A DNA stretch of 64,000 bases from Gigantopelta aegis. Its lineage: Eukaryota > Mollusca > Gastropoda > Neomphalida > Peltospiridae. Of the stretch, positions 7,020 through 44,445 are shown one piece after another (positions within the stretch are counted from its first letter, which is position 1; each line of letters opens with the position of its first letter). The position numbers and the translations under genes were made by a program. The DNA lies in the NCBI RefSeq assembly GCF_016097555.1, contig NW_024532771.1:1-64000 (forward strand), in the 5' to 3' direction. Below the pieces are notes generated by a model that saw only the letters and a program-made list of their open reading frames with translations, was not told the origin of the DNA and did no database searches.

Positions 7020-7275
7020 AATGATGATACTCAGTTGTTGTCACTGTCATATCTTCTACTTTTTCTATCTCTATCAGTTTGATGATAAGAATAATGATGC
7101 TTGTAATAATATCTTCTTTGACTCTTGTCTACTTCTTTCATCTACAGAGGAAGAGTCATTGGTATGTCTTATGTGATTGTTTCTTCAAAATATCCCTGTC
7201 TTTGTATTTTTTTCATACTTTTCTCTTTTTGTATTTTTCTGTTGAGATATGAAGGCAATAATAGGTAACAAAATT
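7020..7275 (-). pseudogene. Relic of the MMTAG2 last exon
   Basis: Read on the minus strand, a CAACAG-type acceptor is followed by a Lys/Arg/Gln-rich stretch (RKIQKEKSMKK), then an Asp/Ser-poor, His/Tyr-rich stretch with stops. This matches the layout and much of the DNA of the MMTAG2 terminal exon at 41961-42138, but the frame is lost. It sits tail to tail behind gene A exactly as MMTAG2 sits behind gene D. It is best read as a passenger fragment of the duplication that spread the ankyrin genes. Confidence 0.65.
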
Positions 7276-7384
7276 TCACATTAAATAAATTAGTGATTGG
7301 ACAATCAACTTGTTCATTATATAATGAATGGATACATGTATAAAATGATGGAGGATGTACAAACACTATCTATAAACAATATTC

Positions 7385-7950
7385 TTGCCAGTGAGAGTGG
7401 CTATTACCAAGTTGTTTAGCCTCTTCTTAAGGAAAGGCTAATCCTAATCTTCAAACACAAGAAGACAGCTGTATTAACGCATGCAGGTGAGAATGGCCAT
7501 TACCAAGTTGTTGAACTTCTCAGAAAATGCTGATATCAAACTTCAAAGACAAGATGGTGTGAATCCTTTGATGTTTGCCACTCATAGCTATTTCTGAGTC
7601 ATTGAGTTGGTCAAAGAAAATGCTGATCATAATCTTCAAAGACAAAGTGGTTATTTGAAATAGAGAAACGTTGGACAGCATCAACAATTGCTGTCAGAAT
7701 GGTCATTTGAAATAGCTCATTTATTAGAAAAGTACATTGATCCTAGTAGTAATTCTTGTAAAGAATTAGATCAATCAATAAACAAATCAATAAAAACTAC
7801 CATTTCTGCTATTTTAATACCTGGCCAAAAGATGGAGGAACTTAGCAAACAACTACAAAAGTATACAGACAACAGAGTCTGTAATTGAACAAGATGTCCT
7901 TCGCGCCTCAACTATCCACTCTGCATCTATAAAGCTGTCTTTTCAAATAT
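7385..7950 (+). pseudogene. Decayed ankyrin repeats plus family C-terminal tail
   Basis: Four or so degenerate ankyrin units (GYYQV, NGHYQVVELL fragments) lead into the family tail (HLLEKYIDPSS..., then IPGQKMEELSKQLQKYT). Stops and indels are frequent and there is no 5' domain. A second copy lies at 17960-18520 behind gene B with shared lesions, so it decayed at least partly before the A/B duplication. Confidence 0.75.
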
Positions 7951-8624
7951 AATAATATTATAAACATAATGTTGGCAAGTATAATGTTAATTAAAACTCT
8001 CAATTATCTATCCTTCCATTAATGCACAAAATATGATTTTTTCACATTTTGCCATTTGTACAACAGGTTACAAGTTAGAATAGTTTCTCGATGCCCATAA
8101 CTTTTGCTCCTGTTAGTTGTCTTCTCCTCATTGTTCCAATATAGATTTCTGTTATGAGACATCAAGGTTCACTAAAAGTGATGTGTGAGAATGATGTATA
8201 TAGGTATGAAATTATTGTTATAAGTACTACAACTCACCCTACAATTACACATTGTTTACATAATTTTCTCTGAACATAACACACATTTAATGAAGAAACT
8301 AAGTCTTTAGAATTTTTGTAATTATTATAAATTCATATTCACTCATCATGTCCCATCCATGTATACATGTTATAATAACAATTATATTATACTCTTCTCA
8401 AATTAGTCAATGTAATGCAGCAAGAATAACGAGATCATGATGTGTGTATTTCACTATAGAAGAGCTTTCTGAGCTGGAATGGGTCCATATAATGCAATAA
8501 ATAAAATTGAGTTGTACTGTGCTTAGTTATAAAGTTGCTACACAATGTAAACAGATATAAAAAGTGTGAGGTGTTAGGAATAAGTTCACAGGTTATTATT
8601 TAAATTACATGTTATGTTTCTCAA

Positions 8625-8870
8625 TCTACTTATTATAATACTGTACTTACTGACTATTACTGTCTATTATTACTGTATAATACTGTACTTACTGACTATT
8701 ACTGTCTATTATTACTGTATAATAATGTACTTACTGACTATTACTGTCTATTATTACTGTATAATACTGTACTTACTGACTATTACTGTCTATTATTGCT
8801 GTATAATAATGTACTTACTGACTATTACTGTCTATTATTATTGTATAATACTGTACTTACTTGCTATAAT
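8625..8870 (+). repeat. 40-bp tandem array (ACTGACTATTACTGTC type)
   Basis: About six units built on TACTTACTGACTATTACTGT followed by CTATTATTACTGTATAATA. The same array recurs at 9970-10425 (about 11 units) and, degenerate, at 19280-19790. Apparent reading frames rich in Tyr/Leu/Ile through it are by-products of the repeat. Confidence 0.9.
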
Positions 8871-8944
8871 ATTACTTTTGATGAGTTTCGCAAAGTTATT
8901 TCATAAAGCTGTAATCTGTTTAACCAACTTATAACCAATTTTAT

Positions 8945-41960: not shown

Positions 41961-43456
41961 CTACCACTTTGATGATGTGAATGGACTACGTTTGTAATGA
42001 TGTCTTCTTTCTCTCTTGTCTTCTGTGGAGGAGGATTCACTAGGTGTGTCTGATGTGATATCATGTTTGTGTCTCTTTGAAATATGTCTCTCTTTTGTTT
42101 TCTTTTTCTTCTTGTTTTTTTCTTTTTTGTGTTTCTTTCTGTTGAGAAAAGAGCAATCACAGGAAACAAAATTGGTAAACAAAACAATGAGAATGAAATT
42201 AAAAATTAATGTAGCTGATTGAATTAAATTACTTTAATATATGAACAGAGAGGTTCAAAAAAATGGACACAGAAAATCAGAATTGTGAGCATAAATGGAT
42301 ATATGCATAAAATATGGATAAATAGAAGATGTATAAAATAATATGATAGACACATAAAAGTATATAATGGACATAATAGATATTTACAATGGATGTATCA
42401 ATAGTGCAATGGATGAACATACTTTATTTTCTTCTCTTTAGTTTTCATAATATCAGTAGTATATTGTTTAGTTGTTAATTCAGTAGGAGTTAGAGGAGTA
42501 ATGGTTGATCTGATGATATTGATGATAAACGTCTCTCACTCTCTGATGTTCTCCGAAATACAAGACGTCCTTCTTCAGTTGTCGATTGATCACCCTATAA
42601 TAAATGGATAAATAGAAGATTAAATGAACAGGCAACAAGAGAAATAAACTGCTAACTTCAAAATGTAGTCATTCCATCTTTAGATGCTGTACTTGGACCA
42701 CCCATCATAGCATTTCTTTGACTAGAGATGTACAAATAATATGATAACATTAACTATCAGTATTGTAATATTGCTCTATGTTGAACACTTAGGAATTATG
42801 AAACTATAATCATATATAGACATATTAGCAAGATTAGTGCTCTGAATATAGAGGTGTTAGAGGTTTAAAATCACTCTGAAAATCAAAAATCTTACTTCTT
42901 GTATACATAACCAAATCATTGTTTGATCAATCAAAATCACTCTGAAAATCACATCTTATTCTTTTGTATACATAACCAAATCATTGTTTGATATCAAACA
43001 ATCTCAAACCAACATCTTATTTCGTTGTATCATAACCAAATCATTGTTTGATCAATCAAAATCAATCTCAAATCAACATCTTATTTCTTTGTATATAACC
43101 AAATCATTAATCAAAATCAATCAAAATCAATATCTTATTTCTTTGTATGCATTACCAAAATCATTATGTGATATAAAAATCAATAGTTGGGTACCTGTCA
43201 AAGCCAACACCTTTTAATTTCTCTCTACCAGTCACTTCAACGTCATCTTCTGTTCTTCTCTTACAAACTTGCATCATTTCTTGTTTAGTTAGGTTTCCTG
43301 ATGATTTTTGAGAGGCAGTCTTAAGACCTCTAACAATAACAATATAAGATATTTATTGTGTTATTATTACAAAGTATTATAACATTACTTTAGTCTACTT
43401 ACAATGCTCTAGCCATTGCTTCCTCTTCAGCTTTTTTTATAGCTGCTAACTCTAAA

Positions 43457-43537
<81 letters not shown>

Positions 43538-43544
43538 GAGTCAC

Positions 43545-43605
<61 letters not shown>

Positions 43606-44445
43606 CAGAGAGAGAGACAGAGAGAGATAGAGAGAGAGAGACAGAGAGAGAGAGAAGAGACAGAGAGTCACAAAGGATAAACGTCAAGCTTACAGCTTTC
43701 AGAGCATCTTTTTTGCCAGATACTTTCGACTCTTTAGTATACTTTAATATAATAACAGAAACAAACACTGTTATACAATAATATATTATTCACTAGATAT
43801 ACTTTATTTATTACATGAATAAAATTTATCGATTTTAAAAATTCTAGCCACACCTAATACTTCATATATGTTAATTAAAATGATAGCACATATAGAACTT
43901 CTTATAGTAGTCATACAGACAGCTATGAAGTATTAAATGATTGTATAATACATGCATGTGTGTGTATATGTGTGTGTATTTATCTTACCATGTTAAATCT
44001 CTTCCTTTCTGCCATCTACCAACTGGAGCCTTTAATGAATGACCTAATATAAGTATATAATGTACATTAATATAATAATAATATATAAGAGATCTTATAT
44101 TAGTTACTTGTTGACAAGATAAAGTTTAAGTGTGAAAGAATCAAACCTCAATAACATTTATACATATATATATATATATATATGTATTATTAATGTACTG
44201 ATAGTCTCGTGAAACAAACTACTCCCCCTCTTTTGATATTGGGTGGCCTGAACTGGCCAGACTGATTTTAATCTCTCCCTACTACCCAATGTTAAAAGGG
44301 GAGTGGAATCTGGTTTGCGGGAGACTAGTCTACTATATGCTTACCTAAATAGTTTTCTCGATATTTGTCGATTTTAAACATTCTCCCACTCAAATTGATC
44401 CTGTCCTCCTCTTGTCCCTCCACGAGATGGCTCATATATAGACAT
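41961..44445 (-). CDS. MMTAG2: MMTAG2 (multiple myeloma tumor-associated protein 2 homologue)
   Basis: Minus-strand gene recognised by the conserved MMtag (kinase phosphorylation protein) domain: [47 protein letters not shown] and [14 protein letters not shown] lysine-rich tail follows ([17 protein letters not shown]..., SPFTSSKW, stop at 41961), as in the animal family, which is nuclear and of poorly known function. Exons: 44445-44345, 44043-43989, 43741-43694, 43449-43403, 43329-43195, about 42594-42440 and 42138-41961. Donor and acceptor ends are GT/AG. Exons 3 to 5 join in phase. One extra base sits in the run at 44376-44378 of exon 1, and the 2/3 and 5/6 joins are one base off, so a small exon may be missed or the consensus may be wrong. 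Exon 4 is bordered by a long GA tract. Head to head with NUP54. Confidence 0.87.
42850..43180. repeat. Tandem repeat in MMTAG2 intron 5
   Basis: Four to five irregular units of about 60 bp with ACCAAATCATTGTTTGAT and ATCTTATTTCTTTGTAT phrases. Confidence 0.8.
43456..43671. repeat. GA/AG microsatellite in MMTAG2 intron 3
   Basis: About 215 bp of (AG)n with occasional C. It forms the pyrimidine tract directly upstream of the exon 4 acceptor on the minus strand. Ser-Leu repeat frames through it are artefacts. Confidence 0.93.
44202..44327. mobile_element. Foldback MITE in MMTAG2 intron 1
   Basis: 126 bp whose two halves are imperfect inverted repeats over about 45 bp: TAGTCTC...CTCCCCCTCTTTTGATATTGGGT against the reverse complement of CCCAATGTTAAAAGGGGAG...GAGACTA. 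Noncoding. Confidence 0.65.

Follow-up and report, generated by a model that had tools for sequence, protein, structure and literature searches.

The window analyzed here, the opening 64,000 nucleotides of contig C608 in a 1.15 Gb assembly, carries four ankyrin genes, all on the plus strand and in head-to-tail order; behind each of the three left-hand genes lies a dead 3′ end of the MMTAG2-like gene that stands, exon-complete, beside the fourth. We consider it likely that a unit made up of the 5′ flank, the ankyrin gene and the MMTAG2 3′ end, broken within an intron of MMTAG2, was duplicated in tandem, and that unequal exchange, deletion and homogenization between copies came afterwards.

The ankyrin genes, designated A (1..6583, the 5′ end being cut by the contig start), B (12839..17165), C (22093..25009) and D (30414..35895; the ends of B, C and D are approximate), contain approximately 50, 23, 9 and 37 repeats, those of A being 99 bp in length, and match the Pfam Ank family with an E value of 2.9e-38. 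Fragments of ankyrin-gene 3′ ends are also present on the plus strand: one behind relic A1 (7381..7966) and one between relics B1 and B2 (17962..20002), the latter interrupted by a 42-bp repeat array. Tandem arrays of 42 bp occur amid the ankyrin fragments behind both A and B (8634-8861, 9979-10422 and 19290-19769). Single-base indels make up 75 of the 81 in the ankyrin arrays (1152-6081, 14405-16676, 23634-24551 and 31752-35450), and just 3 have a length that is a multiple of three: uncorrected long-read errors are therefore likely, rather than pseudogenes. Rfam, tRNA and phage collection searches gave no match.

The MMTAG2-like source gene lies on the minus strand at 41964..44445, as defined by a Pfam MMtag match above cut-off and by reading of the frames. 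Exons are located at about 44365-44445 and about 43988-44047 (43988-44125 in the Pfam match); further exons follow, with the penultimate at about 42420-42600 and a lysine-rich last exon at 41964-42143. The MMtag domain (PF10159) matches exon 43988-44125 at 34.2-34.5 bits against a cut-off of 32.6, and a search of the whole assembly returned three matches: this exon, the first exon (19 bits, below cut-off) and a position on C12 (19.6 bits, below cut-off). On the contig of the window MMtag exons are thus found beside D only. The C12 match (C12:8067038) was considered as the host MMTAG2 and rejected: it reaches only 19.6 bits and is antisense to a receptor-like open frame. The last exon matches no family (best E 0.017, below cut-off); that it belongs with the MMtag exons is suggested by its strand, its distance from them and visually identified splice signals. 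The frame of the gene is broken at two places, probably by read errors, and “intact” here means exon-complete, not in-frame; the gene beside D presumably works. Nothing else in the window duplicates 42847-44460; an isolated 62% match is located at 36554-36677. Next to the inferred breakpoint, at 42867-43184, an MMTAG2 intron holds an array of 64-bp tandem repeats.

Comparison of 41880-42690 with the window (blastn) returned matches at 7024-7275 (68.6% identity), 17608-17857 (65.7%), 20049-20177 (64.9%), 20359-20443 (73.9%), 29030-29284 (71.9%) and 29205-29552 (84.9%). All are plus/plus, which places the relics tail to tail with the ankyrin genes throughout. Four relics are defined, each on the minus strand: A1 (6973..7275; blastn and shuffles) and B1 (17557..17857), which are 96-97% identical and correspond to the last exon; B2 (20030..20443), which is strongly decayed and corresponds to the last exon and last intron; and C (28957..29698), which comprises the last exon, a piece of the last intron, the penultimate exon and part of the next intron. 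The relics are 3′ pieces only: none of the three matches in the whole-assembly Pfam family search for MMtag falls on them.

Chance similarity is ruled out by shuffle controls. The best single-match scores of A1, B1, B2 and C are 82, 66, 32 and 235, while the best of 500 dinucleotide shuffles per region scores 25, 28, 24 and 26; two further controls, the reversed query and the window from 46.5 to 64 kb, each reach a score of 31. The proposal, made in an earlier sequence-only reading, that MMTAG2 3′-end relics lie on the minus strand, tail to tail, behind A, B and C is thus upheld (scores of 66-235 against shuffles of 28 or less), the alignment with 41880-42690 being better than chance for A1, B1 and C, and for B2 when its matches are chained. 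The same reading had suspected an extra relic near 20030-20125. Because the single match of B2 (32) is not above the controls (31), this relic rests on two collinear matches, which when chained score 92 compared to 53 for the top of 2000 local shuffles (plus strand only; 1221 of the 2000 gave any match). B2, at 20049-20443, is real too. A sequence at 11289-11353 (minus strand) matches B2 at 76.8% and has no match to D beyond chance; it is a weak candidate for a fifth, B2-like remnant.

A different possibility is that the relics are a common low-complexity or repeat element that also occurs within the MMTAG2 3′ end. The lysine-rich character of the last exon is in keeping with this, as is the result of a DNA search of the whole assembly with the MMTAG2 segment: of nine matches, which include the source gene and relic C, six are 39-58 bases in length and are located on other contigs. 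However, these six are confined to the lysine-rich part, whereas the matches of C span the last exon, the intron and the penultimate exon, and those of B2 the exon plus intron; moreover, shuffles fail to reproduce the matches. A1, B1 and B2 went undetected in that search – it is less sensitive than blastn within the window – and more distant copies elsewhere are thus possible. We nonetheless judge the repeat-element explanation highly improbable, and continue to treat the relics as pieces of MMTAG2.

Units in the same orientation and in collinear order are evident around the relics. The sequence 6025-9119 is collinear with 16610-19782 (88.7%, relic included), C and D share blocks, and a segment behind relic B2 (20540..20868) matches 29656-29973 behind relic C (61.4%, E 2.5e-10). 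B2 and C share this 61.4% segment at their junctions; the junction of A1 and B1 is a different one. Joint copying of relic and ankyrin unit, as the sequence-only reading supposed, agrees with these data; separate capture of MMTAG2 at each duplication, once per ankyrin copy, does not, because A1 and B1 sit in one stretch that was duplicated together.

The order of events that we would draw from the relics and their orientation, the shared blocks, the relic tree and the discordant divergence (below) begins with a unit extending from the ankyrin 5′ flank past the end of the gene and on into the 3′ portion of MMTAG2, which faces it, with the breakpoint falling within an MMTAG2 intron. Duplication of such a unit would leave a dead MMTAG2 tail in the left-hand copies and the gene in the rightmost. 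Later unequal exchange would have copied A and B together, and deletions would have cut some units down to fragments. The 5′ half of the coding sequence would have become uniform among A, B and C through exchange of sequence between the copies, gene conversion being its most likely form, with a separate homogenization of the C/D 3′ UTR and an adjoining 2.8 kb block.

A tree of the relics trimmed to the last exon has the form ((A1,B1),(C,D)) with bootstrap support of 100% (200 replicates); addition of B2, which falls on a long branch, leaves (C,D) at 88%. The K2P distance is 0.040 for A1/B1 and 0.126-0.161 for C/D; distances from A or B to C (0.25-0.43) and to D (0.23-0.34) depend on the alignment, which is short (∼200 sites) and shifts with gap penalties. 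Inclusion of flank gives a C/D distance of 0.263, a value inflated by the flank. Identity between C and D varies by piece: 89.1% in the last exon, 95.9% in the last intron, 89.3% in the penultimate exon and 72.2% in the next intron. With A1 as outgroup, C has 15 private changes and D has 5 (p 0.041, uncorrected); with B1 as outgroup the numbers are 16 and 5 (p 0.027, uncorrected). An excess of private changes in C is the expectation if D is a constrained gene. The MMtag exons at D together with its shorter branch (p 0.04, uncorrected) make it likely that the place beside MMTAG2 is the original one, as had been proposed.

The relics had further been read as a relative clock, with C/D the youngest pair and A/B older. 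Relic C is indeed nearest to MMTAG2, but if the order is that of splits between copies the relics reverse it. Differences in the last exon amount to 8 of 208 sites for A/B compared to 21-25 of 174-182 for C/D (4% versus 11-14%); wider counts (10/328 versus 39/406, Fisher 0.0003) again show A/B to be younger. Excluded from the 39/406 count are 79 sites past the penultimate exon, of which 72.2% are alike; their inclusion would raise the age of the C/D relic further. A simple order with C/D youngest is thus rejected, since the relics give A/B as the last split.

The simple order with A/B youngest is rejected as well, since by the 3′ UTR and the 2.8 kb block the C/D pair is roughly of the same young age as A/B. 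The 3′ UTR part and block of C extend over 25194..28173, the 3′ UTR part of D is found at 36037-36259, and the block proper is located at 25412-28173 and 38284-41044; 96.6% of aligned bases in the block are alike. Self-comparison of the window revealed no match to the 3′ UTR and block behind A and B. Outside the arrays A and B differ at 51 of 1961 aligned sites (2.6%), the C/D block at 93 of 2696 (3.4%) – the two being indistinguishable (p 0.10) – and the C/D 3′ UTR at 12/337 in one count and 16/332 in another. Compared to the C/D relic (39/406) the block is significantly younger (4e-7). C and D therefore bear two ages: neither the order originally read nor its reverse fits every stretch, and the ankyrin gene copies are not datable from any one stretch. 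The block itself is possibly a mobile element or the product of a later exchange; it has no RNA family match, and four of its open frames match no protein family above cut-off (best E 0.04). A 111-bp piece of it is present as an inverted repeat copy at 28846-28956, directly beside relic C.

Divergence of the ankyrin genes is discordant along their length: the 5′ half groups C with A and B; the 3′ UTR and relic group C with D. In the 5′ exon K2P distances are 0.018 (A/B), 0.023 (A/C), 0.018 (B/C), 0.065 (A/D), 0.071 (B/D) and 0.067 (C/D), with synonymous differences of 9/193 for A/B, 8/193 for A/C, 3/192 for B/C and 17/178 for C/D. Differences in the 3′ UTR are 6/248 for A/B, 16/332 for C/D and 81/248 for A/C. 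For A/C the synonymous count (8/193) stands against 67/231 in the wider relic alignment (Fisher 2e-12) and 37/178 in the trimmed alignment that is most favorable to there being no contrast (Fisher 8e-7). A/B shows no such contrast (p 0.34), and for C/D the comparison of 17/178 with 21/182 yields p 0.61 in the trimmed alignment and 0.001 in the wider one. On the trimmed alignment the C/D 5′ exons fit the C/D relic; what is discordant is A/B against C, and also the C/D block. At the 3′ coding end dS is 0.021 for A/B, 0.127 for A/C, 0.147 for A/D and 0.199 for C/D, so that C/D exceeds A/C, unlike in the UTR and relic; a tree of this region groups the fragments A2 and B2a with D (88%). Incompatible histories of relics and ankyrin exons, which the sequence-only reading had counted against itself, are present in part: the branch lengths of relic and 5′ exons are incompatible, but the topologies, taken as unrooted, could still agree (the 5′ exon tree of four copies has support of 57%).

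From these comparisons it appears likely that ankyrin copies have been homogenized and, though the contrasts come from four copies in one genome and from error-prone sequence, gene conversion is probably the cause. The same tandem duplications might also have taken place without gene conversion, the 5′ exons seeming young through selection on the coding part alone. Similarity does rise at the start codon and drop past the stop codon. Against conversion, the resemblance of B to C sets in at the start codon (the 5′ flank of gene A is absent) and a short intron inside that stretch is about 90% alike in B/C; coding constraint may account for some of the pattern. However, dN/dS is not low (0.2 for A/B, 0.4 for A/C, about 0.5-0.6 for A/D, B/D and C/D, and above 1 for B/C), and dS is itself low (0.043 for A/C, 0.016 for B/C), as against differences of at least 21% in the A/C relic and 33% in the A/C UTR. 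Selection alone strikes us as unlikely, and gene conversion is the preferred reading. A broader and more tentative thought is of a modular cluster in which the N-terminal, putative signaling half of an immune-type ankyrin sensor might be kept uniform by conversion while arrays and flanks diverge, with the dead MMTAG2 tail next to each copy serving as a neutral recorder.

It could also be supposed that some copies, chiefly A and B, are artefacts that arose in assembly through the mis-joining of haplotypes of a low-coverage contig. The preponderance of one-base indels in the arrays (75/81) and the difference of only 2.6% between A and B over 1961 aligned sites are compatible with such an origin, but the relics of C, D and B2 differ by at least 11% and every unit carries rearrangements of its own. 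Artefact is a distinctly improbable explanation, and we retain duplication of the units in the genome.

It may be that the contig is foreign to the assembly in which it stands. In the window CpG o/e is 0.18; samples of large contigs gave 0.91 (C1), 0.41 (C3), 0.92 (C5), 0.75 (C7) and 0.66 (C12), and samples of ten smaller ones gave 0.23-0.28 in five cases (C30, C606, C607, C609 and C700) and 0.41-0.81 in the other five. NUP54 is as a rule a single-copy gene in animals. A NUP54 family search listed 11 matches: those on C6 are over the cut-off (60.4 and 38 bits), C608 has two collinear pieces below it (21.8 and 19.3 bits), and weak matches occur on C2, C3, C9, C13 and C15, with C2 and C9 passing only when in-frame neighbors are included. 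The NUP54-like sequences of C6 and C608 differ, and two exon frames upstream in the C608 gene had no Pfam match. This NUP54-like gene (46385 to beyond 64000) has a seemingly very long, satellite-rich intron, with 58-bp and 60-bp satellite arrays at 51034-57431. Among sponges CpG content varies greatly, and Amphimedon is CpG-depleted (PMC7385117, excerpt); Amphimedon also has 357 proteins with TRADD-N, among which ankyrin repeats are common (PMC8195603, excerpt). The Death/TRADD-N/ankyrin proteins described in that excerpt likewise have an N-terminal part followed by a long ankyrin array, but here TRADD-like_N matches are weak and below cut-off (E 0.0028-0.05; 17.9 bits versus a Pfam cut-off of 23.7) and Death has no Pfam match in the five N-terminal pieces searched. 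Given the CpG o/e of 0.18, the second, sub-threshold NUP54-like gene and the sponge-like ankyrin genes, a sponge-like co-sequenced organism is the best reading of the candidate source. A foreign contig would matter to all users of the host assembly.

The finding of MMTAG2 tails is real, informative and of a known kind. Tandem segmental duplication with a truncated neighbor gene at the breakpoint is a known system, and the present cluster has the same head-to-tail units, a neighbor 3′ end copied without the 5′ end and the full gene at one edge; nothing essential differs, several units here having later been reduced to fragments. Dead neighbor tails provide a non-coding marker for each tandem copy, by which duplication history is separable from later coding homogenization; that tails and exons disagree here counsels caution in dating such genes from exons or one flank alone. 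In human segmental duplications, stretches of paralogs differ in history through interlocus gene conversion (PMC3790853, excerpt). Although the present case comprises four copies from one genome and error-prone sequence, as compared to what that excerpt describes, stretches of the same paralogs here likewise differ in their histories.
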